Positions 10,045 through 43,051 of a stretch of DNA of 64,000 nt are shown in pieces. Source of the stretch: Bacteroidota bacterium. GTDB lineage: Bacteria; Bacteroidota; Bacteroidia; B-17B0; Aurantibacillaceae. The notes beneath the pieces are model-generated. The model ran no database searches, was not told the DNA's origin, and saw nothing but the letters and a program-made list of their open reading frames with translations. Numbering within the stretch: the stretch's first letter is position 1; the number at the start of each line of letters is the position of its first letter. The position numbers were made by a program, and so were the translations under genes. The stretch is from positions 1 to 64,000 of the forward strand of contig CAUJCR010000015.1 of the NCBI GenBank assembly GCA_963169355.1, read 5' to 3'.

Positions 10045-10115
10045 AGGAGGTAAAAAGTAATAAAAGCCTGTGTAGTTAAGTTATAAGAAGCTTACATAGT
10101 TTTTATAGTTATCTA

Positions 10116-10403
10116 TTATGTTAAGGAATATTTTATAGGAGATTTATCTCCGATACGTTTAATCTTTTTATTGGCTTCCAAATCAAGTTTTACCCACTCC
10201 ACATGCCACTCAACTGAACCCATGAATTTAATTTTATCCTTTTTCAAACCATCTGTAATAGAGTTAAGCAATTCTGTATGAGTAGAGTTACCATTGCTTT
10301 TTAAATTAGCCAGCAAGTATTTTGCTAAAAGTTCATACTTATCTTTGTCCATCCTAATTGCTTTTTTTCCAGCAGGGTGTTTTAGTTGTAACTTTTGTTC
10401 CAT
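10116..10403 (-). CDS. Small cytoplasmic protein, DUF6958-like
   Basis: 95 residues with no signal peptide or membrane segment. It opens with LKHPAGKKAIRMDKDKYELL, continues with a helix-rich centre, and ends with a VEWHVEWVKLDLEANKKIKRI block. The order HPAGK..., KYE..., W..KLDLEA...I.R resembles my memory of the DUF6958 family, which looks like a winged-helix fold. The function is unknown. It stands alone on the minus strand between two unrelated genes. Confidence 0.7.
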   Translation of the reverse strand: MEQKLQLKHPAGKKAIRMDKDKYELLAKYLLANLKSNGNSTHTELLNSITDGLKKDKIKFMGSVEWHVEWVKLDLEANKKIKRIGDKSPIKYSLT

Positions 10404-10522
10404 TGTTCGTTAAAAAACTTGCTTTCATTAAAACAAGCTGTTTGTTCTTTATGAATTAAATGTACAAATAAAATTAGACTTCTAACTCTCTCACAAAAAA
10501 AACAAAATGTTTAACATACAAA

Positions 10523-10557
10523 AAAGGGTTGCCTCCCCCCTTTTAAGACAACCCTTT
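10523..10557 (-). terminator. Terminator of the sulfur-relay operon
   Basis: Arms AAAGGGTTG (minus strand of 10549-10557) and CAACCCTTT (minus strand of 10523-10531) form a strong stem, followed on the minus strand by a short T-run. It lies about 25 bases past the operon's last stop codon. Just before that stop codon, 10561-10578 reads TTATACCAAATATAACTA, which matches one end of the MITE at 28970. Confidence 0.85.
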
Positions 10558-10582
10558 GTGTTATACCAAATATAACTACTAT

Positions 10583-11314
10583 TTATTGTAATTGCGCTAC
10601 TACACCTTCCTTTGCTATGTAGCCAGAATGATTCCATGTTAAAGCCTTATTCTTATATATTTGAAGAACAGGCAGAGCATCAATTTTTAAGTCTTTACAC
10701 AGTTGTTGATTATTGTCGGCATTAATTCGAATTACCTCTACCTTATCTGCCATTTCTTTAGAAATTTCTTCTAAGTAAGGTTTCATTTTTTTACAAGGTG
10801 CACACCAATCAGCATAAAAATCTACTAAAACTATTTTATCAGAATTAACTAGCTCATTAAATTTATCCATGGTAAGCTCCTCTGCCCTAGCTTTAGAGGT
10901 TGTTTGTGAAGTGGTTTCAGTGGTTTCTGGCAAATCGGCGCCACGCCATTTCATAATACCGCCACTTAATTCATATACTTGAGTAAAGCCGTTAGAGCGC
11001 ATATAACTTGTGGCTGATGAACTTCTGCCTCCACTTAAGCAATATACAAATACAGGCTTAGATTTATCTAATGTAGCCACTTCGTTTTCAAAATTACTAC
11101 CATTCCAATTAAAATTCTTGGCATTTTGCAAATGCCCCTTTTCAAATTCTTCAGGTGTTCTCACATCAATGATTGGAGCATCTGGCATTTGATTTATTTT
11201 TTCAGAAAATTCAATAGCCGAAAGATTAAACTGTCCATTGGCTGTATTGCTACCACAACTCATCATTAAGATAAATAGCATAACGCTGGTGGTAATAAAA
11301 AATAATTGTTTCAT
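10583..11314 (-). CDS. Lipoprotein fusing a rhodanese domain and a thioredoxin domain
   Basis: 243 residues. The signal peptide ends in a lipobox-like MMSC with Cys20, so the protein is probably anchored in the periplasm. The first domain is a rhodanese (IIDVRTPEEFEKGH at 48-61, active-site loop CLSGGRS with Cys92). The second is a thioredoxin with WCAPC (Cys171, Cys174). The fusion suggests a sulfur carrier whose persulfide is reduced by its own thioredoxin half. It is the last gene of the operon and is followed by a strong terminator. Whether the substrate is thiosulfate, a polysulfide or a protein persulfide cannot be told. Confidence 0.92.
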   Translation of the reverse strand: MKQLFFITTSVMLFILMMSCGSNTANGQFNLSAIEFSEKINQMPDAPIIDVRTPEEFEKGHLQNAKNFNWNGSNFENEVATLDKSKPVFVYCLSGGRSSSATSYMRSNGFTQVYELSGGIMKWRGADLPETTETTSQTTSKARAEELTMDKFNELVNSDKIVLVDFYADWCAPCKKMKPYLEEISKEMADKVEVIRINADNNQQLCKDLKIDALPVLQIYKNKALTWNHSGYIAKEGVVAQLQ

Positions 11315-11326
11315 CGTTTTTAATTT

Positions 11327-11641
11327 TTATAAATATTGGTTTATTACTTGTAATAACTGTTGAGCAGGCACTACGCCAGCTTGCCTCCATTTTACTTCAT
11401 TATTCTTAAAAAGCAAAAGTGCCGGAACACCTTGTATTTTATATGCTGATGCTAACATAGGATTTTTGTCCACATCAATTTTTATAATTGTAGCATTATC
11501 TCCTATCTTATTTTTCAACTCTTCCAGTATAGGCGCCATCATCTTGCAAGGACCACACCATTCTGCAAAAAAATCAATTAATACTGGTTTGTTTCCAGCT
11601 ATAAGCTCCGAAAATGTTTTTGGTTTATCTGTCATATTCAT
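11327..11641 (-). CDS. Thioredoxin
   Basis: 104 residues with the classic [11 protein letters not shown] active site (Cys29, Cys32) and the cis-proline loop GVPAL. There is no signal peptide, so it is cytoplasmic. It lies 12 bases before the rhodanese-thioredoxin lipoprotein and directly after a small membrane protein gene. That placement suggests it reduces persulfides made by the rhodaneses of the same operon. Confidence 0.93.
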
Positions 11642-12713: not shown

Positions 12714-13180
12714 TAATTAGGTAATACTACTGTTTGAGTTGAATTATTAAAAATTTCATGCCCATTATAAAGCACTTGCCAAGTTACTGGCATTATTTTT
12801 TTAAACATGTGGCTCACACCACATATTTTCTCTTGAGAAATTGTAACTGCTTCTAAAGCCGCTTTTTCATCTTCGCTATTACCTTCTAACTCATACACAA
12901 TATGAGCTGCTACATATTCAATAGGAGCCTGTTTACTAATTTCTCCACTTACTTTTAAATTAAAATTACGCAATTGTTTGCCTTGTTTTCTTAATAAAGC
13001 CACCACATCCATACCCGTGCATCCAGAAAGTGCTGTAAGCATAAACGGCTTAGGAATTGAGCCATTATCTTCACCTCCTACTCGTTCAGGTGTATCCATA
13101 ATAATCGTATGACCATTTACTAATGCATTAAATTGCATTTTTCCCATCCATTGTGTTTCAATTTCGTGTTTCATAATCAT
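12713..13180 (-). CDS. OsmC/Ohr-family peroxiredoxin-like protein
   Basis: 155 residues. The OsmC core has two conserved cysteines: Cys54 in LSGCTGMDVVALL and Cys120 in EKICGVSHMFKK. The preceding KPFMLTALSGC block is also typical. OsmC proteins reduce organic peroxides and, in some bacteria, persulfides. In an operon of rhodaneses and thioredoxins the sulfur-related role is plausible. It is cytoplasmic. A second in-frame ATG lies two codons downstream of the chosen one. Confidence 0.9.
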   Translation of the reverse strand: MIMKHEIETQWMGKMQFNALVNGHTIIMDTPERVGGEDNGSIPKPFMLTALSGCTGMDVVALLRKQGKQLRNFNLKVSGEISKQAPIEYVAAHIVYELEGNSEDEKAALEAVTISQEKICGVSHMFKKIMPVTWQVLYNGHEIFNNSTQTVVLPN

Positions 13181-13186
13181 TAGTTT

Positions 13187-13393
13187 TTAAGGTTTATTTT
13201 TTCTAGTAGAAATTCTAAAAGGGAGGTACAAAGGACAAAAACTCAACGCACTTGTTGCAATAAAAACTACAGCTAAAATTCCAAGAAATAAAGCCATAGT
13301 TCCAGAAATAACATTTAAAAAATAAAGGATTGCAATTACAAATGCCAACCCCAATCTTATTATTTTATCTAATGTGCCAATATTCTTTTTCAT
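13187..13393 (-). CDS. DUF2892-family membrane protein
   Basis: 68 residues. It opens with MKKNIGTLDKIIRLGLAF, then two hydrophobic stretches (FVIAILYFLNVISG and ALFLGILAVVFIATSALSF) and CPLYLPFRIST. This is the usual stand-alone DUF2892 (YgaP tail-like) protein, common next to rhodanese genes. It is the first gene of the operon, directly downstream of the Crp/Fnr-type dyad. The ATG at 13393 is preceded by a leader of about 25 bases. Confidence 0.88.
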   Translation of the reverse strand: MKKNIGTLDKIIRLGLAFVIAILYFLNVISGTMALFLGILAVVFIATSALSFCPLYLPFRISTRKNKP

Positions 13394-13422
13394 AAAACCT
13401 AGTCTTATTGTTTATCTTGATA

Positions 13423-13468
13423 CAAAGGTCGGTAAGAAAAAGAAATTAGATGGTAACATTTGTCACAA
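13423..13468 (-). promoter_or_regulatory. Operon promoter with a Crp/Fnr-type dyad
   Basis: On the minus strand TTGTGACAAATGTTACCA (13468-13451) forms an imperfect dyad of two 8-base halves that match at 6 positions. The left part has the full TGTGA half-site of CRP-type operators. GACCTTTG (13430-13423) matches the -7 consensus TAnnTTTG at 7 of 8 bases if offset is allowed. The dyad centre lies about 40 bases upstream of the expected start of transcription, the position of a class II activator site. The Crp/Fnr gene next door is the natural candidate regulator. Confidence 0.5.
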
Positions 13469-13476
13469 TCTATGTT

Positions 13477-13511
13477 TTATACCTAATTTGCACATAAGGA
13501 ATTGGGTATAA
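13477..13511. repeat. 12-bp-arm inverted repeat between the Crp gene and the sulfur operon
   Basis: TTATACCTAATT (13477-13488) pairs with AATTGGGTATAA (13500-13511) with one mismatch, around an 11-base loop. It follows the Crp/Fnr stop codon by about 30 bases. No T-run follows on the minus strand, so it is a poor rho-independent terminator. The TTATACC ends resemble the MITE ends at 28970. Confidence 0.65.
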
Positions 13512-13541
13512 AAAAGAAAAACCAACAAAACTCGGAATCTG

Positions 13542-14192
13542 TTATGAGAAAATAGTTTTCAAAAGTTTAATCTGATTACGATATAACAACACCTTTCCTT
13601 CATTTTCTAATTTCTTCAATAGCCTTGAAATCACCTCTCGCGATGAGGCCACGTCATTCGCTATTTCTTCGTGCGATAAATTAATGATGGTACTACCAGT
13701 AGCATTTGATTTATCTACAAGATAATTAACTAAACGCTCATCTAATTTTTGAAAGGCTAATTGATCAATAGTGTTCAGTAATTCATTAAAACGGCTTCTT
13801 ACGGTTCGCATCACAAAACTTTTCCAGGTTGGATATTTCATAAGCCATTCATCCATCACCCCTATTGGAATTGCAATAAATTCAACATCACTCTCTGCTA
13901 CAGCTCTTACCTCGCTTGGATATTGTTGCATACAACAAGTAAATGTCATAGCGCAACTTTGATTCGCACTTACATAATACAATAATAACTCTTTGCCATT
14001 TTCATCTACTCTACTTACTTTAAGAACTCCACTAAGTAACAAAGGAATCATAGTAACTGTTCTGCCAATATCAATAATTAGTTCTCCCTCCTTTACAGAA
14101 ATAATTTTGGATTTTGCCTCCATTTCTTTTAGTAATTCGGGCTCAAATACAGAAGAAAATTTATCGGTTAAATTATAATTAGATATTGTCAT
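13542..14192 (-). CDS. Crp/Fnr-family transcriptional regulator
   Basis: 216 residues. The N-terminal cyclic-nucleotide-type beta-barrel (KIISVKEGELIID...LLLSGVLKVSR) is followed by a long dimer helix. The C-terminal winged helix reads LSHEEIANDVASSREVISRLLKKLENEG. No N-terminal iron-sulfur cysteine cluster like that of FNR is seen, though CAMTFTCCMQQYP in the middle of the effector domain holds three cysteines. These could sense redox or sulfur species. It lies upstream of the sulfur operon in the same orientation, and a Crp-type dyad sits at the operon promoter. Confidence 0.92.
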   Translation of the reverse strand: MTISNYNLTDKFSSVFEPELLKEMEAKSKIISVKEGELIIDIGRTVTMIPLLLSGVLKVSRVDENGKELLLYYVSANQSCAMTFTCCMQQYPSEVRAVAESDVEFIAIPIGVMDEWLMKYPTWKSFVMRTVRSRFNELLNTIDQLAFQKLDERLVNYLVDKSNATGSTIINLSHEEIANDVASSREVISRLLKKLENEGKVLLYRNQIKLLKTIFS

Positions 14193-14232
14193 GTTGCTTA
14201 AAATGTATTTTTAATTCCACAATATAATAAAA

Positions 14233-14253
14233 AAGCTGTTAATGAAACAGCTT
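14233..14253 (-). terminator. Terminator after the redoxin gene
   Basis: AAGCTGTT (14233-14240) and AACAGCTT (14246-14253) form an 8-bp stem around 5 bases. On the minus strand the stem is followed by TTTTTTATTAT. It ends the gene at 14287-14901 and lies before the Crp gene. Confidence 0.8.
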
Positions 14254-14286
14254 GAAAGATGAAATAGGTCAAACTAATACGCTACC

Positions 14287-14901
14287 CTACTCTACTCGCT
14301 TTATCATGCAGCCTATGGCTTTTGTTTCTTGCACACTTGGCTTTTCTTGTTTTAATAAGGCATCAATGGCATTTTTTAAATAGGCTGCTTTAACCTCATT
14401 AACATCTCTAATATTATCATCAATAGTGCCTTTATACACTAATTCTTTTGAGTTAAACAAGAAACATTGTGGTGTTTTGGTGGCTCCAAACGCATCCGCT
14501 AATTTAGAAGATACATCTATTAGGTGCGCACAGGTTATATTGTTTTCTTTAGAAAATTTTGCCATCTCCTCAAAACTATCATCGTCTTTTCTTTGATCTT
14601 CGTTACTGTTAATTAACACGCAACCAATATTATTTTGAGTGCAGTAATCGGTTATTGTTTTCATTCTTTCGGCATACATTTTAACATAAGGGCAGGTATT
14701 AGCCGAAAAAATAACAAGTAAACCTTTAGCGGTTTTAATCTCATTAAGAGAGATTAATTTTCCGGAAACGTCTTTTAATTTTTCGTTACCAAGTGGTATT
14801 GAAGCTCCAATAGCAATCTCTGGATTAGTGGTCGTATTAATAAACGACAACAAAAAACCACATACAACTAATAGTACAACAAAAGAAAAACCTTTTTTCA
14901 T
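14287..14901 (-). CDS. Exported redoxin (AhpC/TSA thioredoxin-like)
   Basis: 204 residues. An N-terminal hydrophobic segment (FSFVVLLVVCGFLLSF) gives a signal or anchor. The redoxin fold follows: GASIPLGNEKLKDVSGK, then VIFSANTCPYVKMY with a single active-site Cys rather than CxxC, and later KTPQCFLF at the cis-proline position. A final Cys lies in IGCMIKR. The NTCPYVK motif is typical of a Bacteroidota redoxin family of unknown target. It is monocistronic with its own terminator and lies upstream of the Crp gene in the same direction. Confidence 0.82.
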   Translation of the reverse strand: MKKGFSFVVLLVVCGFLLSFINTTTNPEIAIGASIPLGNEKLKDVSGKLISLNEIKTAKGLLVIFSANTCPYVKMYAERMKTITDYCTQNNIGCVLINSNEDQRKDDDSFEEMAKFSKENNITCAHLIDVSSKLADAFGATKTPQCFLFNSKELVYKGTIDDNIRDVNEVKAAYLKNAIDALLKQEKPSVQETKAIGCMIKRVE

Positions 14902-15057
14902 TGTGTAAAAAATTAAGCACTAAATGTAAACAAAAGCTTATCAATAGGTTAATAATTCCTCGATGTGAGGGCTTATTTTGTCTAAAAAAAGCCTTTAAAA
15001 GCCTGATTTTTAACAATTTGTTAATGAAAAAACGAAAAATTGAATTAATAAATAACT

Positions 15058-15115
15058 TAAATTTGTGAGTAAGTGAACACCCTACAAGAGTTTTTTACAG
15101 TTTCTATGTAAAAAA
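15058..15115 (+). promoter_or_regulatory. Candidate -7 element and leader hairpin upstream of the T9SS protein gene
   Basis: TAAATTTG (15058-15065) matches TAnnTTTG exactly. About 25 bases on, TTTTTTACA (15091-15099) pairs with TGTAAAAAA (15107-15115). This gives a leader of about 125 bases before the ATG at 15192. The 13 bases at 15057-15069 recur at 28187-28199 before the response regulator gene. Confidence 0.35.
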
Positions 15116-15191
15116 TATTCCGAAACCACTTATTTAGGATTTAACTCAAAATTTAAGTTTTTGGATGTTGTTTTTGAAGACGAATAGAAAT

Positions 15192-16469
15192 ATGAATAGC
15201 CGAAATTTAATACTTAAATTTCTTTTATTTATTTGTATTCAAGGGCATTCGCAAGTATTAATTACAACAGGTAGTTATACTCAGGATTTTGGGAATACGG
15301 ATATTACAAGTTGGACAGATAACTCAACTTTTCTTGGTTGGTATCTCTCAAGCACATCCAATTTTTATCACCAAAATGTAACTACTTCTCCTGTACCTTC
15401 TAACAATGGTGGGATTTATTCATATGAATGTAACTCTGATAATAACCAAAAGTTAGGTACTCGGCCTTCTAATTCTAATCCTGGAGGGGTCGGCACTTAT
15501 TATCATTATGGTGTAAGACTAAAAAACAATTCAGGAAAAACAATATATAGTCTTAGAATTAGTTTTGATGCTTACCAACTTTCACTTGCTGGAAATGTAA
15601 ACACTCAAAACACATTAGACTTCAGTTATCAGGTTTCAGCTTCAGCAATTACAAATTTAACTACAGGAAGTTATATTAATGTTCCAGCACTACAATATAT
15701 AGCACCACGAGACACATCAAGCAATAACTCTTCAAATCAGTTATTAGGTTTCCCATGTACAATAAGTGAGAATAAAACCACATGTCTTTCTGTTTTAATT
15801 CCTAATAATTCCGAAATTATGCTTCGTTGGTCGGATGTAAATAATTCAAATAACGATCATCATTTAGCCATTGATAACTTAACTATCGACTTTGGAATTG
15901 ATTATAGTGACTGTTCATTATTACTTCCTATAAGCCTCATTGATTTTAAATGCATCTCCGAAGAAAAAGGATATAACCTTTACTGGGCAACGGCTAGCGA
16001 ACATAATAGTAAAGATTTTGAGATACAGTATTCAACAGATGGCATAATATTTCACACCATTCAAAAAGTTGCTGCCCGTGGCGAATCCAATTCATATACC
16101 AGCTATAGTCAATTTATTGATAATAAATTTTCATCTCCCTTAGTTTACTTCCGATTAAAAATCAACGATAATAATGGCAGTTATACATACTCGCCAATAG
16201 TTTATATTCAAAACGATATTTTTGCTAACATCAGTATTACACCCAATCCAGTATCAAGTGGCGAAAATGTAAGCATTTATATGGATGAAAAAACAGATTA
16301 TAACAATACAGAAATTACATTATACAATATTGCAGGAGAAAAAATACGACAAGATAAAATCGAGTCCATACATACAAGTATAAACACAAAAGAATTACCT
16401 GCAGGATTATATCAACTTAGAATAACAAACGCCTATCAAACTAAGAACTTTCGACTTATCATTCAATAA
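15192..16469 (+). CDS. Secreted protein with type A T9SS sorting domain
   Basis: About 425 residues from the ATG at 15192; another ATG at 15165 is less likely, as the signal peptide (LILKFLLFICIQGHSQ) follows the later one. The mature N-terminal region resembles surface domains that open with TGSYTQDFG. A central fibronectin-like segment carries the familiar LIDFKC...LYWATASEHNSKDFEIQ pattern, and a type A sorting domain closes the protein (ISITPNPV..., LYNIAGEKI, LPAGLYQLRI). It is probably exported or anchored by T9SS. No enzymatic motif is seen. Confidence 0.82.
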   Translation: MNSRNLILKFLLFICIQGHSQVLITTGSYTQDFGNTDITSWTDNSTFLGWYLSSTSNFYHQNVTTSPVPSNNGGIYSYECNSDNNQKLGTRPSNSNPGGVGTYYHYGVRLKNNSGKTIYSLRISFDAYQLSLAGNVNTQNTLDFSYQVSASAITNLTTGSYINVPALQYIAPRDTSSNNSSNQLLGFPCTISENKTTCLSVLIPNNSEIMLRWSDVNNSNNDHHLAIDNLTIDFGIDYSDCSLLLPISLIDFKCISEEKGYNLYWATASEHNSKDFEIQYSTDGIIFHTIQKVAARGESNSYTSYSQFIDNKFSSPLVYFRLKINDNNGSYTYSPIVYIQNDIFANISITPNPVSSGENVSIYMDEKTDYNNTEITLYNIAGEKIRQDKIESIHTSINTKELPAGLYQLRITNAYQTKNFRLIIQ

Positions 16470-30882: not shown

Positions 30883-33800
30883 ATGAGCACAATACAACAA
30901 GAATTAGAAAAACGCATATTGGTGATTGATGGTGCCATGGGCACTCAAATACAACAATATAAACTCGAGGAAAAAGATTATAGAGGGAAACGCTTTGCCA
31001 ACTGGCCTGTAGATGTAAAAGGAAATAATGATTTATTATCCATTACAAAACCAGAAATTATAAAAACCATCCATAAAGAATATTTAAAAGCAGGAGCCGA
31101 TATTATTGAAACCAACACATTTAGTGGCACCACCATTGCCATGGCCGATTATGAGATGCAGGACTTGGTGTATGAACTCAACTATGAATCGGCTAAAATT
31201 GCCAAAGAAGCCATTGCTGAGTTTTATAAAGAATTTCCGGAGCAAGCCACTACCAAAAAATTTGTAGCTGGAGCCATTGGTCCTACTAACCGAACCTTAT
31301 CTTTATCGCCCAATGTAAACGACCCAGGTTTTAGAGCCATTACCTTTGATGAATTAGTAGCTGCTTACAAAGAACAAGTAAAAGGATTAATAGATGGCGG
31401 AGCTGATATTTTATTAATAGAAACTATTTTTGATACCCTAAATGCCAAAGCGGCCTTATTTGCCATACAAGAACATGGCAAAGAAATAAATCGCAAAATG
31501 CCTGTAATGGTATCTGGTACCATTACCGATGCTAGTGGTCGTACCTTATCGGGGCAAACAACCGAGGCCTTTTTAAATTCAGTGTCGCATGTTGATTTAT
31601 TAAGTATTGGTTTAAATTGTGCTTTAGGTGCAAAAGATATGCGACCTTATTTAGAGGAGTTATCTAACAAAGCCCCATTTTTTATTAGTGCTTATCCTAA
31701 TGCGGGTTTACCCAATCAGTTTGGCGAATACGACCAAGATGCTCACGAGATGGGGCATCAAATAGAAGATTTTTTAAAAGCAGGATTTATAAATATTGTA
31801 GGTGGTTGTTGTGGAACCTCGCCAGCACACATTAAACGCATTGCCGAAATTGCAAAAAATTTTAAGCCACGCCAAAAACCTCAACCAGATACATTAATGC
31901 ACTTGAGTGGTTTAGAGCCTGTAACACTACGCCCCGACAGTAATTTTATGAATGTGGGAGAACGTACTAATGTAACGGGTTCAAAAAAATTCTTACGCCT
32001 TATCAATGAACAAAAATTTGAAGAAGCACTTTCTATAGCACGCGAACAAGTAGAAGGTGGTGCACAAGTAATTGATGTTAATATGGACGAAGGAATGTTA
32101 GATGGCGCTAAAACCATGACCACCTTTCTTAATTTAATTGCTTCTGAGCCCGATATTTCGAAAGTACCCATTATGATAGATTCTAGTAAATGGGAAGTAA
32201 TAGAAGCTGGATTAAAATGTGTGCAAGGCAAAGCCATTGTTAATTCCATTTCATTAAAAGAAGGCGAAGCAGCCTTTATTGAACATGCTGCTAAAATAAA
32301 ACAATACGGCGCCGCTGTTATTGTAATGGCATTTGACGAAGAAGGACAAGCTGATACTTACCAACGAAGAATAGATATATGTAAGCGTGCTTATGATATT
32401 TTAGTTCACAAAGTACACTTTACACCACAAGACATCATCTTTGATCCAAATATTTTTCCGGTAGCAACGGGTATGGAAGAACATCGCTTAAATGCCCTCG
32501 ATTTTTTTAATGCTACCAAATGGATAAAAGAAAACTTACCACATGCCAAAGTAAGCGGCGGTGTAAGTAATGTATCGTTTTCATTTAGAGGCAATGATGT
32601 AGTGCGCGAGGCCATACATTCGGCTTTCTTATTTCATGCTATTAAAAACGGCATGGATATGGGTATCGTTAATCCATCTCAACTCGTTGTTTATGACAGC
32701 ATCGATAAAGAACTTTTAGAACATGTAGAAGATGTATTGTTAAATCGCCGTGATGATGCCACCGAGCGATTAATTACACTAGCCGAAAAACTAAAAGGCA
32801 CGAGTAACGAAAAAGCAGAAAAAGACGAAGCCTGGAGAAAAGGCACAGTAAACGAACGATTAACACACGCCTTAGTAAAGGGTATTGTAGAGTATATTGA
32901 AGAAGATGTAGAGGAATGTCGTAAAACAGCCGCAAAAACTTTAGATGTAATTGAAGGGCCATTAATGGACGGAATGAACGTTGTGGGCGATTTATTTGGC
33001 GCTGGTAAAATGTTTTTACCACAAGTTGTAAAAAGTGCCCGAGTAATGAAAAAAGCAGTAGCCTACTTATTACCATTTTTAGAAGAAGAAAAAGCAAAAA
33101 CGGGCGTTACACAAAAAAATAACGGAAAAATATTGTTGGCTACTGTAAAAGGCGATGTACATGATATTGGCAAAAACATTGTAGGAGTGGTGTTGGCTTG
33201 TAATAATTACGAAATTATTGATTTAGGCGTGATGGTATCTTGCGATAAAATATTAGAACAAGCTCGTCATCACAATGTGGATATTATTGGATTAAGCGGA
33301 TTAATTACCCCATCATTAGATGAAATGGTACATGTGGCTAAAGAAATGGAGCGCTTAGGTTTTAAAACGCCTTTATTAATTGGCGGCGCTACTACATCAA
33401 GAGTTCACACCGCTGTAAAGATTGATAAAAATTATTCGGGACCAGTTATTCATGTAAACGATGCTAGTAAATCGGTACCCGTTGCTAGCAACTTAATTTC
33501 AAACGAACTGAGAAAAGGTTTTATGTTGGAAATTGAGAAAGATTATGAGCGCATTCGCGAACAAAATAAAAATGCTCAATCACAAAATAAATTTATTTCG
33601 CTAGCCGAAGCTCAAGCCAATAAATACCCAATAGATTGGGAACGTACCTCAATTACCAAACCTACATTTATTGGTACCAAAGTTTTTACCGATTACGATA
33701 TTAGCGAAATAACACAATATATTGACTGGACACCATTCTTTCACAGTTGGGAATTAAAAGGTTCTTATCCTAAAATTTTTGAAAACGAAAATCATGGCAA

Positions 33801-34566
33801 AGAGGCCAAAAAATTATTTGATGATGCCCAACACATGCTTCAACAAATCATTAAAAACAAATGGTTAAGTGCCAGAGCGGTTATAGGTTTTTATCCAGCT
33901 AATAGCATTGGCGATGACATTGCAGTGTATAACGAAACAGGAAAACAAACTCATACATTTCACACCATTCGCCAACAAACTAAAAAACCAGCTGGGCAAT
34001 ACAATGTAGCCTTATCCGATTTCATCAAACCATCTCAAGACAATCAATTGCCAAGCGATTACATTGGCGCATTTGCGGTAAGCACTGGTTTTGGAATAGA
34101 TGAGCAAATTGAAGTATTTAGAAAAGACTTTGACGATTACAGTGTGATTATGCTAAAAGCATTAGCCGACCGCTTAGCCGAAGCATTTGCCGAATTAATG
34201 CACAAACGTGTTCGTAAAGAATTTTGGGGATTTGCAAAAGATGAAAACCTCAGCAATGATGAATTAATAAAAGAAGAATACATTGGCATTCGTCCAGCGC
34301 CTGGTTATCCGGCGCAACCCGACCACACCGAGAAAAATACCATTTGGAATTTACTAAAGGTAGAAGAAAATACAGGTATTCAACTCACCGAAGGTTTAGC
34401 GATGGTGCCTACCGCAGCGGTAAGTGGTTTATATTTCTCGCATCCTAATGCACATTATTTTGGAGTTGGAAAAATTAATAAAGAGCAATTAGAAGATTAC
34501 GCCAAACGTAAACAAATGGATATTGATGTAATGGAACGTTGGCTAAGTAGTGCCTTGAATTATTAA
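30883..34566 (+). CDS. metH: Cobalamin-dependent methionine synthase
   Basis: 1227 residues, all four modules present. The homocysteine domain has zinc cysteines in SIGLNCALG and [10 protein letters not shown]. The methyltetrahydrofolate domain is next ([20 protein letters not shown]...). The cobalamin domain has the DxHxxG motif in [13 protein letters not shown], about 756-765, and the activation domain ends the protein ([30 protein letters not shown]). It transfers a methyl group from methyltetrahydrofolate to homocysteine. Expression is under a SAM-I riboswitch. The full length means that reactivation by SAM is possible. Confidence 0.97.
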
Positions 34567-34571
34567 AGCAA

Positions 34572-35882
34572 CTAAATTCCAAGTTCTTTAGCTTGCTGAG
34601 AAGATTTACTTGGATTCCAACTATCCTCATAAGATTTCTTAAAGAAGAACTCTTGCACATAAGCTATGGAGCGAACAAATCTTAAATAAAAACCAAAATA
34701 AAAAACCATACAAGGTAAATAAGGTAAGAAATAGTAAACTGGCGCATTTTTACGATTTCTAAACAAAGAGAAAATTAAGAACTTAAGGAAGTTGTTGGTA
34801 GTATAAAGTAAGATATTAAATGGGAATATAAATCCTAACAAAGATGTGTAATTGATAACCATATCAAATAAATAAATCCACCATTTAATGTTTAGTATAA
34901 TATTGTAGGTAATGTTTTCTGCACTCGATACAAAATTTGAGAATCGAAAAGTAGCATTGGGATAAAATACATCTTTATGTTTCCTTACACGAAATCGAAT
35001 AATTGATTTATCCCATCTTAATCTTTGCTTAACTAATTTTTTAAAGGTACTTGGTACACTTGTTTGACATACAGCCTCTGGTTCAAATTTAATAAGATAG
35101 CCCAGCTTTCTTAATTTCACGGTTATATCGCCATCTAATCCAGGTCCAATATCCCAACCACCTACTCTATCTAAAGCCTCTCTTTTAAAAGCTCCAAATG
35201 CTCCAGACACTAAACGATAAATACCCAATGAACTAGAAGTAATACGACCTACCGAAATGGTATCAGAATACTCAATAGCTTGTAGAGTAGCACATAAACT
35301 TTCTTTATAATTTCTTACTAAAATATTCCCACCCACAGCGCCTACATTTTCTTCTAAGTAAAAAGGAATAATAATTTTTTCAATGGCATCATTATCATAA
35401 CTACAATCAGCATCTAAATGAACAACAATACTTCCTTTTGAAAAACGATAACCTAAGTTGGCAGCAGAGGCTTTTCCTCCACGAACATCGTTACGTAAAA
35501 ACAAATCAATTAATCCATTTCTTTGTAAGCTTTTACAAATTTGTTCAGTATCGTCATCCGAACCATCATCTATAACAATAAATTCAAAATTTTGATAGGT
35601 TTGTTCCTTTAAGGAATTTACCAGTTTAAAGATGTGCTTTCCCTCATTTTTTCCAGGAACAATAATTGAAACAAATGGTCTTTCAATAAATAATCTTCTG
35701 CGAGCATTTGCATACAATTCATTGCGTTTTTTTTCACGTAATTTCCAAACTAATAAAACGGCTAACTCAAAAATAAAGAAGCGTGCAAATTCAAAAAACA
35801 CAAAGAACCAAAAAATTCGAATGAGTTTTGTAGGACCAACCTCAGTTATATAATTAAAAAAATTATCTAAGGCTTCTATCAT
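34572..35882 (-). CDS. Membrane glycosyltransferase family 2, polysaccharide synthase
   Basis: 436 residues. A membrane helix near the N-terminus is followed by a GT-A domain with the processive synthase motifs: IVIDDGSDDD, LDADCSYDN, GLDGDITVK and QRLRW (the Q-x-x-R-W motif). Several C-terminal helices follow (WWIYLFDMVINYTSLLGFIF and others). This pattern fits poly-N-acetylglucosamine or hyaluronan-type synthases. The start codon overlaps the stop of the TackOD1 gene by 4 bases (ATGA). It is the last gene of a four-gene operon, which suggests the polymer made here is exported by the products of the first two genes. Confidence 0.9.
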   Translation of the reverse strand: MIEALDNFFNYITEVGPTKLIRIFWFFVFFEFARFFIFELAVLLVWKLREKKRNELYANARRRLFIERPFVSIIVPGKNEGKHIFKLVNSLKEQTYQNFEFIVIDDGSDDDTEQICKSLQRNGLIDLFLRNDVRGGKASAANLGYRFSKGSIVVHLDADCSYDNDAIEKIIIPFYLEENVGAVGGNILVRNYKESLCATLQAIEYSDTISVGRITSSSLGIYRLVSGAFGAFKREALDRVGGWDIGPGLDGDITVKLRKLGYLIKFEPEAVCQTSVPSTFKKLVKQRLRWDKSIIRFRVRKHKDVFYPNATFRFSNFVSSAENITYNIILNIKWWIYLFDMVINYTSLLGFIFPFNILLYTTNNFLKFLIFSLFRNRKNAPVYYFLPYLPCMVFYFGFYLRFVRSIAYVQEFFFKKSYEDSWNPSKSSQQAKELGI

Positions 35883-37321
35883 GCTTTTTCAACCAAATCT
35901 TTAATAATATTTTGGATTTGTTTGTCGAAACTTACTTCCTTACTAATAGATGCCACATGAGTTGCTATTTCAAGTTGAAAACGGTCAAAATTATTCATAA
36001 CCAATTCTTCAATCATATCGGTAATTTTCATAACCATAAAATTAGAATTCTCTAATGTTTCATCATTGATACACACAGAAATAACCGATGGATTATTGAT
36101 GCAAATAAAATCAGCAGGTGTAATATTAGATCGAATCATCGCTACAAACTCCGACAATAATGATTTTTCTTTTGAGCGCCCTATTGCACGATATAAATCA
36201 AAGATATTAGTAAAATAAAACACAACTATATTTGAATTTAAACTAGCATTAGCTTTCATACGCTCCTGTTCATAATGCATCATCGTAGCAAACATCTTGG
36301 TATTTAATGTCCCTACAACCTCATCACTTAAAGCATAATCAGATGAAGCAATTCCGCTTAGGGCTGAAGTTCTACCTTTTTTAGTTAATTTATATACATT
36401 AATATTTTTCGACACTAAAAATTGTACATCTGTATCAGTTGCACATTGAATACATTTAGCCTTTACTGTATAATCTTGAAACACTTCATTGCAATTTTGA
36501 CAGTGATTGATAATTGAAGGTTTATCATAATCCACACCAATGTGTCTTAAATTCTTAGTGCATTTTGGACAATTTAAAACAGTATCTATATTATTTTTAA
36601 AATCACTTATTGCACCAATGTATCCACAAGGGAAGTGATGAACTAAATCCTCCGAACGCATATTAGCCGAATTACAATTAGGGCAAATTTCTCTATAAGA
36701 TAAATGTCCGCCTTTGCAATTACTACATAAATAAACTCTGTCGTAAAAGTCTGGCCAAATTAAATTTTCTTTTTCAGCCCATTCTAATATTTCTAAAACT
36801 TTCGCTTCTTCAAAAGCATCATAATTAACCGAAACTATCGGGTAACTATAACCAATTGAAGAATTCATATCAGCATGTGGTTTCAAATTGTTTACACCTC
36901 TTGTAAACATAAAATTTAAAACCTTTTTAAATATTTGAATCTCAATAGAACTTGATGCCGATTGTTCTAGTTGCGTTATACGCATCTGAATTTGATTAAT
37001 ATCGTTAATAGTTTCTGGAATCTGTTCAAATGAAACGACTGAACCATCTGTTAATTCCTTGATATATGGATCATCATTATCTCTATTATTAATTAAAAAA
37101 ATAGGCTTTAAATAGAATTCAATTTTAGAGTGTGATCTAAATTTTTTAATAATAATTCGTGTAAAATCAACGTCTCTAGCATCTAATATGATAGCATCAT
37201 AATTTTCATATTGCTCTATCATAAGCGAACTAAATGATTCAATAAAATAAAATGATTTATTGAAAAATGTAATCACATTATCTTTAAATTCAATTTTGTC
37301 TTTTGCTATTTTATTAATCAT
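35879..37321 (-). CDS. TackOD1-like zinc-ribbon protein with degenerate GGDEF domain
   Basis: 480 residues and no signal peptide. The first 120 or so residues look like a receiver-type domain (YDAIILDARDVDFTR). A zinc-ribbon array follows with five CxxC pairs (CSNC, CPNC, CPKC, CQNC, CIQC), which I match to the TackOD1 domain by pattern. The C-terminal 170 residues resemble a GGDEF fold, but the signature loop reads INNPSVISVCIND, so it cannot make c-di-GMP. It may be a binding or regulatory subunit of the synthase. It is packed tightly between the HlyD-like and GT2 genes. Confidence 0.78.
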   Translation of the reverse strand: MINKIAKDKIEFKDNVITFFNKSFYFIESFSSLMIEQYENYDAIILDARDVDFTRIIIKKFRSHSKIEFYLKPIFLINNRDNDDPYIKELTDGSVVSFEQIPETINDINQIQMRITQLEQSASSSIEIQIFKKVLNFMFTRGVNNLKPHADMNSSIGYSYPIVSVNYDAFEEAKVLEILEWAEKENLIWPDFYDRVYLCSNCKGGHLSYREICPNCNSANMRSEDLVHHFPCGYIGAISDFKNNIDTVLNCPKCTKNLRHIGVDYDKPSIINHCQNCNEVFQDYTVKAKCIQCATDTDVQFLVSKNINVYKLTKKGRTSALSGIASSDYALSDEVVGTLNTKMFATMMHYEQERMKANASLNSNIVVFYFTNIFDLYRAIGRSKEKSLLSEFVAMIRSNITPADFICINNPSVISVCINDETLENSNFMVMKITDMIEELVMNNFDRFQLEIATHVASISKEVSFDKQIQNIIKDLVEKA

Positions 37322-37324
37322 ATT

Positions 37325-38452
37325 TTAATTGAATTTTAATTTAGAAATATCTACACTCATTTTATAAAACGTTTTCCACTTCACAAATTCTGCCGAATCT
37401 TTAGGATAAATATCACCAGCTATACTTCGGGTGGTAGGCTCATATTTTTTCTGAAATTCTTCAGGTAAAGTATAAGTGGCAATATAAAATCGTTTAAGAA
37501 CTCCTACAGATGTAGTACCATCAGGAAAAGTTACATTAAATTCATCGCCAACTTTAAAATATCTTAAGTCTTCTTGCTCAAAAAAAGCTTTGATATAAGC
37601 TGGATGAGATTGATGTATGGAAATAATATCTTCTGTTTTCAAAACAGTTTCAAAATCATGGGCATAAATTCTAGTTGCAATTCCATTTACAGGTGATTTA
37701 AAATATTTTGGTTCCGTTAATAACTCTTCGCTAAACAATAGTTTTTGAGAATCATCCATATTACTACCGCCTCCGCCTGTTGATGAATAAATTCGTGGCG
37801 ACTTATATGTAGCCGAATTAACTTGCGGACCCAATGTTTTAATTAAACCATATAATTCGTTATTTTCTTTCTGTAATTTTTTATTGAGAGTTTCTAATTT
37901 TAAAATTTCATTTTGAACATAATCTAATCTTGTTTTTGGCAAAACATCTAGTATAACTTCATTTGTCAATCGTTTAATCTCACTTTTAAAAGTAGTTATT
38001 AAGCCTTCGTTTTCGGCAATATCTATATTATTTAAGGCGATTTTTTTCTTTATAGAAAAGATTTCTTTTACCCACCAATCGTCTTTTTTGTCTCCTACTA
38101 TTGAACCAATACTTATAGATTGCGAAGCACTATTACCATTAATATCATCATCTCTATCCAAAGCATAAGAAAACAAAGTATCATTAACTTGTATGCTATC
38201 TCCTTCATGAACTTTAAAATTAATAATGCGAGCATCATCTGTTAATCTAATTTTGGTACTTTCAATAATGACATGCCCATACGCATTTATATATGCAAAT
38301 TTGAATAAAAAGTAATATGCTAAAAATAGCAAGAACAATCCTAATAAGCATAGATATAAAATTCTATCCCAGTTACGTTGTTTCTTTTTTTTAACTTTCT
38401 CGTTTACAACTCTAATTAATGATTTATTTCTTTGAAAATTTATACTTTTCAT
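37325..38452 (-). CDS. HlyD-type membrane fusion protein
   Basis: 375 residues. A cytoplasmic N-terminus (about 30 residues, basic) and one membrane helix (ILYLCLLGLFLLFLAYYFLF) are followed by the periplasmic half: a lipoyl-like strand (GHVIIESTKIRLTDDARI..KVHEGDSIQVNDTLF), a long coiled-coil hairpin and a beta-barrel region (YFKSPVNGIATRIYAHD, FKVGDEFNVTFPDG). Such proteins bridge the inner and outer membranes. The start codon abuts the stop of the exporter-like gene. The partner is probably the TolC-like protein encoded just before it. Confidence 0.88.
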   Translation of the reverse strand: MKSINFQRNKSLIRVVNEKVKKKKQRNWDRILYLCLLGLFLLFLAYYFLFKFAYINAYGHVIIESTKIRLTDDARIINFKVHEGDSIQVNDTLFSYALDRDDDINGNSASQSISIGSIVGDKKDDWWVKEIFSIKKKIALNNIDIAENEGLITTFKSEIKRLTNEVILDVLPKTRLDYVQNEILKLETLNKKLQKENNELYGLIKTLGPQVNSATYKSPRIYSSTGGGGSNMDDSQKLLFSEELLTEPKYFKSPVNGIATRIYAHDFETVLKTEDIISIHQSHPAYIKAFFEQEDLRYFKVGDEFNVTFPDGTTSVGVLKRFYIATYTLPEEFQKKYEPTTRSIAGDIYPKDSAEFVKWKTFYKMSVDISKLKFN

Positions 38453-40546
38453 TTATTTGTCATCTTCATTTTTTATTTGAATACTTTGCTTATCAAATTG
38501 AATAAGATCATCTAAATCATGATAAGCTTTCTTCGTAATTTTTATTTTCTCAAACATGGTCTCCATCTCCGTTCTATTCTTAAAGTCTTTCGTTCTAAAT
38601 GCTAAAACACATTTATCACCTAGCAATTGCACTTCTTCAATCAATTTCTTATTTAAAAATTCTATATCTACATTCTCATAAGCCATCAGATAAATCAAAT
38701 TACAAACACTATTAATTTCTTTTAGTACATTTTCTGGGTAATTTAAAGGAATGGAAACAGATAACTCTAAATGATTAGCATCTGTAAATTGCTTAGCCTC
38801 TTTTAATAATTGTAGATACAAGTTAAAGTGCTTTTCTTTATCCTCTTTAAATCCTTCTAGTGTATGAGGTTCAATATCTAAATGAATTCCTTTTACTAAT
38901 TTTAATTCAGTATTCATTTTAAGTGTATCTAAATATCCCTTTATTCCATTAAATAATAATTTATTACTTCCAATCATTAAATGAATTGGGCTTGTATATT
39001 GCTGACGAATAAATTCATTTAATTGCAATAAATAACTCTTTGTAGGATGGTATGAGATAAGTAAAGGATTAAACTCATTAACCTTGCAAAATTCAGAAAT
39101 AACAGTTTGAGTATGATTCTTAAAAGCGTCACTCCAAATATAAATTGCCTTAAAGGGTGGATTTGTTGAAGCAATATCTAAGTTTGTTAAGTTTAATGGC
39201 TGTGTAAAATCAATAATATTAACGTTAGGAAACTTAGATTTTATATTAATCAATACCTTATATAGTTCTTGTTTTAAATCCAACAATTCTATGGCATTAC
39301 TCCAAAAATCATCTAATATAAATAATGCCGTGTTAGGATTAAATTCCACATCTCCTAGTTTTTGTTTCACGTCTTCTGTTCTTAGTAACTCTATATACAC
39401 CAAGCGTTTATGATATAAATTTTTAAATTGTTTTAATTTATACTGATATTCATAGTATAAATTGAGCAGAAAGCTCTGCGAGTTAACTGTTCGATTAGGG
39501 GCTTGAAAATTATTAATTTGTTGCTGTAGGAAATAATATTCTTTTTTATCCTTTTGATTTAAGGTTAATGGTGCCGATAAATTAAATCCAACCGAAACAT
39601 AAGATCTATCGGGCAGAGTCTGATTATACACATCATAATAACTATATCTAGTATAAGCCTTTAAACTCATTTCTTTAAAATAAGAACTTTGATATTTCGC
39701 AATTTTCGCATAACTTAATGTGTCATTTTGAATGCTATCATGTAACAAACAATGTTGAATTAATTTTTGAACATTAATATCAAGGATTGGTAAATCAACA
39801 TCATTTAAATGTCCTTGTCTTGTTCCAGCATCATTATAATTTTTATAAATATTATATTGAGCATTAATGTCCGTTGTGTTTTGAATTACTTTTAAATAAT
39901 TGTCTTTTGTAATGTGTTTAATTGTCCATAATTGCTCTATAATCCGAGATTGCTCGGTGTTTAAGTTTTGACGATGATTTAAAATCAATAACTTCTTATT
40001 ATTAAAATATCTTATAATCTCTTCGGTTTGAGATGCTTGAAAGGCTTCCAAATTTTCTCTCATTTGTTTTTTTAAAAGCATCTCACGTTCAAGCTTTAAT
40101 AATTTCAATTTTTGCTTATATTCAAACAAGCCATTATTTAATAAGTCCCAATCAATACCGGCAATGGCTCTTCTTTTAAAAACCACTATTTCCTCTGGGT
40201 CAACTAAAGGTGCTTTTAAGTTCTCTTGATAAGCTAATGTAAAGCGTACACCATGTTCTTTTTGATAAATTTGTTGTTGTACTTGATTAGACTTTAACAA
40301 TAAATTCTTATAATTATTTTGCTTTTCATCATCTGATATTTTAAAGGGTTCATTTATTAATTTAGCAGACGAATCAATAATTAAATTATCAAAAGTGGAA
40401 TTTTTATGATTTAACCATATTGTATTTAATTGCTGAATGTATTTAGTAACTACCGAATCAATAGATTGAGAAAATACTTGACATCTGATTCCGTTAAATA
40501 ACATCAGAATAAAAACAATAGCAATATACCGAAACCTAATCATCAA
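38453..40546 (-). CDS. Outer-membrane efflux (TolC-like) protein with a C-terminal glycoside-hydrolase-like domain
   Basis: 697 residues. A signal peptide (YIAIVFILMLFNGIRCQ) is followed by a TolC-like half: long helices rich in Leu, Lys and Gln (KLLKLEREMLLKKQMRENLE) and a strand block YVSVGFNLSAPLTL. After about residue 450 the sequence changes to an alpha/beta pattern with IYIWSDAF, HLMIGSNKLLF, KGIHLDIEPH (about 549-557), LELSVSIPL and YLMAYENVD. This resembles a TIM-barrel glycosidase of the GH18/PgaB sort, with DIE as the likely catalytic segment. The fusion is not one I know. It is the first gene of the operon. Confidence 0.75.
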   Translation of the reverse strand: MMIRFRYIAIVFILMLFNGIRCQVFSQSIDSVVTKYIQQLNTIWLNHKNSTFDNLIIDSSAKLINEPFKISDDEKQNNYKNLLLKSNQVQQQIYQKEHGVRFTLAYQENLKAPLVDPEEIVVFKRRAIAGIDWDLLNNGLFEYKQKLKLLKLEREMLLKKQMRENLEAFQASQTEEIIRYFNNKKLLILNHRQNLNTEQSRIIEQLWTIKHITKDNYLKVIQNTTDINAQYNIYKNYNDAGTRQGHLNDVDLPILDINVQKLIQHCLLHDSIQNDTLSYAKIAKYQSSYFKEMSLKAYTRYSYYDVYNQTLPDRSYVSVGFNLSAPLTLNQKDKKEYYFLQQQINNFQAPNRTVNSQSFLLNLYYEYQYKLKQFKNLYHKRLVYIELLRTEDVKQKLGDVEFNPNTALFILDDFWSNAIELLDLKQELYKVLINIKSKFPNVNIIDFTQPLNLTNLDIASTNPPFKAIYIWSDAFKNHTQTVISEFCKVNEFNPLLISYHPTKSYLLQLNEFIRQQYTSPIHLMIGSNKLLFNGIKGYLDTLKMNTELKLVKGIHLDIEPHTLEGFKEDKEKHFNLYLQLLKEAKQFTDANHLELSVSIPLNYPENVLKEINSVCNLIYLMAYENVDIEFLNKKLIEEVQLLGDKCVLAFRTKDFKNRTEMETMFEKIKITKKAYHDLDDLIQFDKQSIQIKNEDDK

Positions 40547-40780: not shown

Positions 40781-43051
40781 ATGGCTAAATTTAAAAAGCA
40801 AGATGCTCTTGATTATCATTCGCAAGGCAGACCTGGAAAAATTGAAGTAATCCCTACCAAACCATATAGTACACAACGAGATTTAACCCTCGCCTACTCT
40901 CCTGGCGTTGCAGAACCATGTTTGGAAATAGAAAAAAATCCCGAAGATGCCTATAAATACACGGCTAAAGGCAATTTAGTAGCTGTAATTTCTAATGGAA
41001 CTGCTGTATTAGGATTGGGCGATATTGGTGCACTGGCCTCAAAACCAGTTATGGAAGGTAAAGGCTTATTATTTAAGATTTTTGCTGATATTGATGTGTT
41101 TGATATTGAAGTAAACACTAAAAATATTGACGAGTTTGTTCAAACTGTAAAAAATATTGCACCTACTTTTGGAGGTATTAATTTAGAAGACATCAAAGCA
41201 CCCGAGTGCTTTGAAATTGAACGCCGACTAAAAGAAGAGCTAGATATTCCATTAATGCACGACGACCAACATGGCACAGCCATTATTTCATCGGCGGGTT
41301 TAATTAATGCCGTGGAATTATCGGGTAAAAAAATGAGCGATGTGAAACTCGTTATTAATGGTGCTGGTGCTTCGGCAAACTCTTGTGCTAAAATGTATAT
41401 TGCAGTTGGTGTAAAAAAAGAAAATATCTTAATGCTAGATAGCAAAGGAGTTATCCATAAAAACAGAACCGACTTAGATCAATATAAATCCTTTTTTGCA
41501 TCCAATAACACTAAAATTAATACACTCGAAGAAGCCGTGAAAGGCGCCGATGTATTTGTTGGATTATCAAAAGGTAATGTCTTAACTCAAGATATGGTTC
41601 GCTCTATGGCTCCTAATTGTATTGTATTTGCCTTGGCCAACCCTACTCCCGAAATTTCTTATGAGGAGGCTATTGCCGCTCGTCCTGATATCATTGTTGC
41701 AACTGGTAGAAGCGACCATCCTAACCAAGTTAATAATGTTATTGGATTCCCTTTTATTTTTAGAGGTGCGCTAGATGTACGAGCAACTTGCATAAACGAA
41801 GAAATGAAACTAGCGGCTGCCTTAGCTATTGCAGCCTTGGCTAAAGAAAGCGTTCCAGATTATGTAAACTTAGCTTATGGCTCTAAAAACATCACCTTTG
41901 GAACCGATTATATTATTCCAAAACCAATTGATAACCGCTTAATCTCAAGAGTAAGTGCGGCAGTAGCCAAAGCTGCTATTGATAGCGGTGTTGCCAAACA
42001 TACTATTACCGATTGGGAAACTTATAAAAACGACCTTGATAATCGTTTAGGAAAAGATAATCGCTTAATGAGAAGCCTTGCTAATAAAGCAAAATCAAAT
42101 CCTAAGCGTATTGTATTTACCGAAGCAGATAATTACAAAATATTAAAAGCGGCTCAATTAGCAAAAGACGAAGGTATTGCTAAGCCTATATTACTTGGTA
42201 ATAAAGAAAAGATATTATCCTTGCTCGAAACACACCAAATAGATATGGGCGATGCGCCAATTATTGACCCTTGGTTGCCAGAAGAAGAAGCAAAGCGCAT
42301 TGAATTTGGTGATATATTATGGGCAAAAATGCAACGCAAAGGTATTACACAGTACGATGCCCGAAAATTAATGCGCGACCGTAACTACTTTGGTGCAATG
42401 ATGGTAGAGCGTGGCATGGCAGATGCTATGATTTCGGGGCTTACCCGAAAATATGGAGCACCTATTAAACCTGCCCTAGAAATTATTGGGGTGCAAGAAG
42501 GCGTAAGCCGTGTGGCAGGTTTATACATGATGATTACTAAACGTGGCCCTTATTTCTTTGCAGATACAACCATGAATCTCGACCCTAATGCTCAACAATT
42601 GGCCGACATTGCGGTTTTAACTGCTAATACCGTAAAACAATATAATATTACACCACGTATTGCTTTATTATCTTATTCTAACTTTGGATCAGCCGAAGGC
42701 GAAATACCTAAAAAAGTACAAGAAGCTGTAAAAATTTTACACGGTAATTATCCTGGCTTGATTGTAGATGGCGATGTACAAGCCAATTTCGCTGTAGATA
42801 ACGAGTTATTAAAGGAACAATTCCCATTTAGTACCCTAGTAGATAAAGATGTAAATACTTTTATATTCCCAAATCTTGCATCTGGTAACATTGCTTATAA
42901 AATTTTACAACAATTAGGTGGTGCTGAGGCTATTGGTCCAATTCTAATTGGCCTTAAAAAACCAGTACATGTATTACAGCTAGGTAGCTCTGTACGTGAA
43001 ATTGTAAACATGATAACCATTGCCGTTATTGATGCTCAAAATAAAAAATAA
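40781..43051 (+). CDS. maeB: NADP-dependent malic enzyme with phosphotransacetylase-like domain
   Basis: 756 residues. The malic enzyme half (1 to about 430) has [50 protein letters not shown] and [14 protein letters not shown]. The C-terminal half ([55 protein letters not shown]) is the phosphotransacetylase-like regulatory domain. It decarboxylates malate to pyruvate with NADP reduction. In E. coli the extra domain mediates control by acetyl-CoA. It stands alone with its own promoter. Confidence 0.96.

Follow-up and report, generated by a model that had tools for sequence, protein, structure and literature searches.

Fusion of a TolC-type channel with a GH18-like barrel in a four-gene operon, a candidate exopolysaccharide exporter of Bacteroidota and Balneolota

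The DNA analysed here is a stretch of 64,000 nucleotides from a Bacteroidota bacterium (contig CAUJCR010000015.1, positions 1 to 64,000), hereafter called the window. An initial annotation, made from the sequence alone, had read one of its frames as a TolC-like exporter continued by a glycosidase-like barrel. The locus raises two questions: whether a channel and an enzyme are really joined in one polypeptide, and what such a protein would be for. The features considered are collected in Table 1.

Table 1. Fusion gene, its domains and motifs, and the neighbouring genes, in window coordinates
Feature	Position	Strand	Basis
Fusion gene, TolC/OEP outer-membrane factor + GH18-like TIM barrel, 697 aa, operon gene 1	38453..40546	minus	single open frame
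TolC/OEP half, residues 28-440, two strand pairs + two long helical hairpins	39227..40465	minus	AlphaFold topology, Foldseek, Pfam OEP in relatives
Barrel-strand pair 1, residues 100-133	40148..40249	minus	AlphaFold
Barrel-strand pair 2, residues 294-326	39569..39667	minus	AlphaFold
GH18-like (beta/alpha)8 barrel, residues 462-690	38477..39163	minus	AlphaFold, VIA-align, Pfam GH18 in relatives
HLDIE (residues 555-559) at the strand-4 end, with D557 + E559 as presumed catalytic acids	38870..38884	minus	invariance
MAYE (residues 621-624) at the strand-6 end; counterpart of GH18 MxY(D/N)	38675..38686	minus	M and Y invariant; aligned to MAYD of 3g6l
HD, residues 676-677, end of strand 8	38516..38521	minus	D677 invariant
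Periplasmic adaptor of HlyD/EmrA type, 375 aa, TM segment at the N-terminus	37325..38452	minus	profile matches; starts directly at fusion stop
TackOD1 zinc-ribbon protein, 480 aa, receiver-like N-part, degenerate GGDEF-like C-part	35879..37321	minus	PF18551
Processive GT2, 436 aa	34572..35882	minus	TIGR03937; 31% identity to E. coli PgaC; 4-bp overlap with TackOD1 gene
Malic-enzyme-type gene, upstream, divergent	40781..43051		name read from sequence
Methionine-synthase-type gene, downstream, convergent	30883..34566		name read from sequence

The fusion frame is intact, with 697 codons counted from a TTG. Its second codon is an ATG (40543-40541) and, because the frame begins with TTG-ATG, translation probably starts one codon later, at position 40543. 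The fusion has a patchy distribution, being found in 10 of 60 related genomes compared, and in all ten it is one open frame. It is also unbroken in nearly all of 80 public loci, the exceptions being contig ends and a few broken MAG frames (contigs L030, L076 and L083). Relatives are encoded in about 116 public stretches, nearly all labelled Bacteroidota or Balneolota; much of this evidence comes from MAGs, and the isolates carrying the open frame include Crocinitomix, Brumimicrobium, Salibacter and Rhodohalobacter. One record labelled Candidatus Kuenenia (Planctomycetota; L052) has a GT2 that groups with Fluviicola with full support, and is probably a mislabelled or contaminated bin. Comparison with a relative of 89% identity gave a dN/dS of 0.053 for the channel half and of 0.089 for the barrel half; by this codon-level comparison, the barrel is under purifying selection.

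Searched alone, the fusion protein gave no convincing Pfam or NCBIfam match; weak single-sequence Pfam matches to RWD and DUF2368 were taken as chance. No single known family spanning the full length was found in Pfam, NCBIfam or PDB profile searches. An AlphaFold model of the whole protein, built from ten relatives (mean pLDDT 75.6), agrees with the initial description of helices and barrel strands followed by an alpha/beta part, and the change of pattern had been correctly put at about residue 450: eight alternating strands, between residues 466 and 675, come after the helix 404-438.

In the first half of this model, strands (100-110, 125-133, 294-304 and 314-326) and long helices (140-208, 214-240, 356-396 and 404-438) succeed each other in the OEP order, with a strand pair at 100-133, a hairpin at 140-240, a second pair at 294-326 and a second hairpin at 356-438. 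The OEP family (PF02321) matches 32 of 42 family members at E<=1, with a best E of 1.1e-8, and its cut-off is passed by some relatives (L065, L131); the fusion protein itself has no OEP match, the family being seen via relatives only. The top Foldseek match of the whole model in the PDB is CmeC (445 columns, E 4.3e-6), followed by OprM, TolC and CusC. These fits to TolC-type channels are loose (TM 0.26-0.42), the channel half being modelled at moderate confidence; low scores are expected, because long bent helices are compared in an uncertain monomer model. The sequence profile of the OEP half matched no solved TolC structure. An HlyD/MFP-type adaptor, the kind of partner with which OEPs work, is encoded next to the channel in all untruncated loci. 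Fold, length and adaptor partner are common to the fusion and to the TolC/OEP factors (CmeC, OprM, CusC, TolC), whereas the C-terminal enzyme domain, the weak sequence similarity and the operon without an ABC, RND or MFS partner set it apart. Six ordinary OEPs of 447-487 aa are encoded in the same genome, together with one sub-threshold match in a 378-aa frame, and the barrel extension is absent from all of them. Some fusion proteins elsewhere carry a Ycf48-type propeller at the N-terminus, and others a weak SPOR-like N-terminus (L009, L010/L087).

The second half was also modelled alone, from 42 relatives, and folded into a complete (beta/alpha)8 barrel (pLDDT 92.0, pTM 0.85). The top ranks of VIA-align are held by GH18-type proteins and by the C-terminal domain of PgaB, with Z between 16.5 and 18.6 over 207-230 residues, and the same proteins come out on top when the whole-protein model is used. 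Foldseek ranked tryptophan synthase alpha first, which was set aside as a generic TIM-barrel match, full structural alignment favouring GH18/PgaB. By sequence, the best PDB match of the barrel is 10yv ('putative GH97'; E 0.0015), covering strands 2-5 only. Pfam GH18 matches 8 of 42 family members (best E 1.3e-7), and the fusion protein itself does not reach the Pfam cut-off for GH18. Among 296 genomes of the phylum, only fusion frames of about 700 aa matched the barrel profile strongly. A stand-alone secreted protein of 449 aa with an HLDVEPY motif (L102, 895-2244) is unfused and distantly related to the barrel.

HLDvE of the family profile lines up with the catalytic motif of the chitinase 3g6l and with iHfDfE of SleL/YaaH, and MaYE with MaYD of 3g6l. 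D557 and E559 follow strand 4, and M621 and Y623 follow strand 6, in the same placing as in GH18. The full consensus DxxDxDxE is not kept: the sequence reads KGIHLDIE, with the middle Asp replaced by His, as in SleL/YaaH. The label GH18-like, rather than GH18, is used here because the consensus is incomplete and the protein itself has no GH18 match. With GH18 members (chitinases, SleL/YaaH, endo-beta-N-acetylglucosaminidases) the barrel shares the fold, the D-x-E after strand 4 and the M-x-Y after strand 6; it differs in its KxxHxDxE-like motif, in a similarity that lies at the edge of detection, and in being fused to an OEP. H555, D557, E559, M621, Y623, D654, H676 and D677 are invariant in 80 of 80 public loci, a figure biased by the use of HLDxEPH and YLMAYE as search patterns. 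Conservation was therefore rechecked on 19 sequences found otherwise, with the whole protein or the OEP part alone as query: HxDxE, MxY and D677 are kept in every one, and H676 is replaced by Q in three. The initial reading thus holds for both halves, the first by its OEP and Foldseek matches and its adjoining HlyD-type partner, the second by its complete barrel and its GH18 and PgaB matches. GIHLDIEPH is present as described, at residues 553-561 instead of 549-557, and the acid pair proposed for a TIM-barrel hydrolase corresponds to the invariant D557 and E559, whose catalytic role is presumed from their position and conservation.

The fusion gene is followed on the same strand by genes for the adaptor, the TackOD1 protein and the GT2. 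This order is kept in 72 of 72 untruncated loci, the eight incomplete ones of the 80 all ending at a contig edge, and the spacing between fusion and adaptor varies from -14 to +90 bp. No ABC, MFS or RND transporter gene is found in the operon. The initial annotation had noticed neither this operon, from which the likely function is read, nor the hydrolase-pore precedent BcsZC (PMC7112194). The adaptor profile matches the structures of EmrA (4tko, 1.6e-8), MacA, LipC and HlyD; in one locus the adaptor carries a SPOR domain at its C-terminus (L090, E 3.2e-9). Family alignment of the GT2 shows TM segments and the invariant motifs QRxRW and DxD. Its nearest curated model is PgaC/IcaA (TIGR03937, E 4.5e-51), with 174 bits against a cut-off of 422, and its PDB relatives are chondroitin, hyaluronan and chitin synthases; PilZ was not found on it by Pfam. 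A CotH kinase-like secreted protein is encoded in ten loci (L023, at 12977-15610, L054, L056, L062, L066, L067, L070, L083 and others), in most of them immediately after the GT2; the two tested carry a T9SS tail as well as lamin-tail and chitobiase C-terminal domains.

The 480-aa protein matches TackOD1 with an E of 1.4e-53. The GGDEF motif is absent from its C-terminal part in the alignment, and TIGR00254 is matched with an E of 0.11 only; the protein is presumed to be a cytoplasmic regulator. TackOD1 was first defined in archaeal response regulators, where its function was termed obscure (PMC5847659). Here a bacterial polysaccharide operon regularly includes the domain, set between a receiver-like and a GGDEF-like part.

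A polysaccharide deacetylase of about 700 aa, with a T9SS tail and conserved NodB motifs (THDVD, HSxxH), flanks the operon in nine loci. The source genome encodes an orthologue of 704 aa (L146/L158) beyond the 64-kb window, at about 78.5-80.6 kb of the same contig. Eight of ten genomes with the operon encode this deacetylase, against none of 50 others (Fisher p 1.8e-8), and at genus level the six genera with deacetylase, out of 33, are the six with operon (p 9e-7); these p-values ignore relatedness within genera. The deacetylase was not found in two of the operon genomes (G003, G009), nor in seven of nine operon genomes of Balneolaceae. In wider samples it is rarer, yet nearly always together with the operon. 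Its co-occurrence links the operon to an N-acetylated polymer, independently of the barrel-less operons described below.

In the sister operons of some Balneolaceae (L126, L127, L131) the channel protein stops after the OEP half or has a short divergent tail, and a dehydrogenase gene is inserted, for which the best model is TviB, a UDP-GlcNAc C-6 dehydrogenase (E between about 1e-136 and 1e-139, short of the equivalog cut-off). A gene of about 650 aa is also present in two of the three, with DUF4114 where tested. One genome (G259) has both operon types on the same contig, L131 being the first of them. In a GT2 tree, whose root is unreliable since the PgaC branch has a length of 10, the barrel-less systems and L128 form one clade (SH-aLRT 99). 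L128 encodes a 536-aa channel protein (9895-11505) whose barrel is degenerate, with recognisable first strands and last part but no catalytic middle (strands 3-6). This remnant makes a single loss of the barrel probable, at the point where the sugar precursor became one of uronic acid type; the reverse, which the uncertain root would allow, is less likely. The barrel-less operon is probably a uronic-acid variant of the same exporter, and its TviB-type dehydrogenase points to sugars derived from UDP-GlcNAc and ties the barrel to the type of polymer.

On this evidence, the four-gene operon can with some confidence, though well short of assurance, be regarded as a synthase-dependent exopolysaccharide machine whose hydrolase is fused to its TolC-type channel. 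The domains, the operon, its conservation, the co-occurrence with the deacetylase and the lack of the barrel in a sister system are observed; we infer the assembly of the complex, the identity of the polymer, catalysis and regulation. The GT2 would polymerise an N-acetylhexosamine polymer, most likely GlcNAc-based, and extrude it through the inner membrane; the HlyD-type adaptor would link the GT2 to the channel, making a conduit to the outside, and the TackOD1/GGDEF-like protein would switch the synthase from the cytoplasm. The barrel would hang from the C-terminus of the channel in the periplasm and cleave the polymer of its own system, either trimming chains, including those failing to enter, or clearing polymer leaked from the conduit. 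Outside the cell, the T9SS-exported deacetylase would take acetyl groups off the product. In known synthase-dependent systems the polymerase is accompanied by a periplasmic enzyme, hydrolase or lyase, that cuts the polymer it makes, as with AlgL, PelA, BcsZ and PgaB (PMC7112194, PMC5933820).

The position of the barrel bears on what it would cut. The C-terminus of TolC lies in the periplasm, and therefore a trimer would carry its three barrels in a circle around the channel, outside the conduit; with a sealed conduit, they would meet polymer by leakage only. Such a placing suits the clearing of leaked polymer or trimming, and leaves room for local cleavage of peptidoglycan. A peptidoglycan hydrolase that opens the murein locally for installation of the exporter, the polysaccharide being exported and not cut by the barrel, is the main alternative; it is rather unlikely, with several points in its favour: the closest folds include the cell-wall enzymes SleL/YaaH and Cwp19, SleL having the HxDxE form of the motif too, and a barrel so placed is expected near the peptidoglycan layer. 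SPOR domains bind peptidoglycan glycans, and they occur on some adaptor relatives, as in L090, and weakly at the N-terminus of some fusion relatives. However, the barrel is gone exactly where the sugar chemistry of the operon shifts, though those channels cross the same peptidoglycan, and the six ordinary OEPs of the genome do without such a domain.

It is distinctly unlikely that the barrel does not cleave at all and instead binds the polymer, guiding or gating it at the mouth of the channel like chitinase-like lectins. In its favour, the structurally close proteins include catalytically dead lectins of this kind (IDGF-2, YKL-40 type), the position following the tyrosine of MxY varies in Balneolota (E, G, Q, K), and K/H stands in place of the Asp with which the GH18 motif usually begins. 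Such lectins, however, usually lose the Glu, whereas D557, E559, Y623 and D677 are invariant in the sequences found without the motif.

Efflux and type I secretion are the usual tasks of the OEP and HlyD families, and the nearest solved relatives of the adaptor are EmrA and MacA. That the pair is an ordinary channel for proteins or small molecules, with the glycosyltransferase as a bystander, is nevertheless very improbable, given an operon devoid of transporters of those classes and a GT2 present in every untruncated locus of both Bacteroidota and Balneolota. Two genes artificially joined by a frameshift or missed stop in assembly or annotation have a negligible chance, MAG-derived as much of the evidence is, the frame being open in isolates and in all related genomes that carry the fusion.

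The exopolysaccharide machine has partial precedents. In the model of the cyanobacterial XcsA-XcsB-TolC (XcsC) system, a GT2, an HlyD-like protein and a TolC-like channel form a tripartite cellulose exporter, with a separate glucanase (PMC12430437). Genes for the same three components are found here, all in one operon. In XcsAB-TolC, the TolC and the hydrolase are separate, often unlinked genes and the synthase carries PilZ, whereas here a single polypeptide combines channel and GH18-like hydrolase, and its operon also encodes a TackOD1 protein and a PgaC-like GT2. A hydrolase fused to an outer-membrane pore is reported from Zymomonas as BcsZC (PMC7112194). The principle is the same and the families are others: by their names, BcsZC joins a BcsZ-type cellulase to a BcsC-type pore, whereas the fusion described here joins a TolC-type channel to a C-terminal GH18-like barrel, in the absence of BcsB.

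The PgaABCD system for PNAG is similar in having a PgaC-like synthase, a barrel of the same fold (Z about 18) and a hydrolase and a deacetylase around one polymer. The GH153 domain at the C-terminus of PgaB lacks the second catalytic acid of GH18/GH20 (PMC5933820); in the fusion, by contrast, this acid, E559, is present and invariant, and the N-terminal part is an OEP and not a deacetylase. PgaB, its deacetylase included, is a protein of its own, and PgaA is not of TolC type. No PgaB over the cut-off was found in the source genome, and PgaA and PgaD are absent from the operon. The initial annotation had known of no characterised TolC homologue with a glycosidase domain, and no description of a fusion between a TolC-type channel and a GH18-like barrel, or of the four-gene system, was found in the open-access literature. 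Parts and principle thus have precedents in XcsAB-TolC, BcsZC and PgaB, while the fusion and the four-gene system are apparently undescribed.

Channels of the TolC family are known as passive exits through which drugs and proteins leave the cell. If the proposed function is true, Bacteroidota and Balneolota would have an exopolysaccharide exporter with a hydrolase bound to the channel at fixed stoichiometry, and the unproven route from synthase through HlyD to TolC would become directly testable within a single operon. The TackOD1 domain would be placed beside a polysaccharide synthase, and the loss of the barrel with the gain of a UDP-GlcNAc dehydrogenase would be a natural experiment on the purpose of the hydrolase. 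In wider terms, the chances seem evenly balanced that the operon represents an undescribed class of synthase-dependent systems for polysaccharide secretion, widespread among Bacteroidota and Balneolota, with a TolC-type exit bearing its own glycosidase, an HlyD adaptor and a TackOD1/degenerate-GGDEF switch, in which the enzyme module would be gained or lost with polymer chemistry and TackOD1 would find its first functional context.
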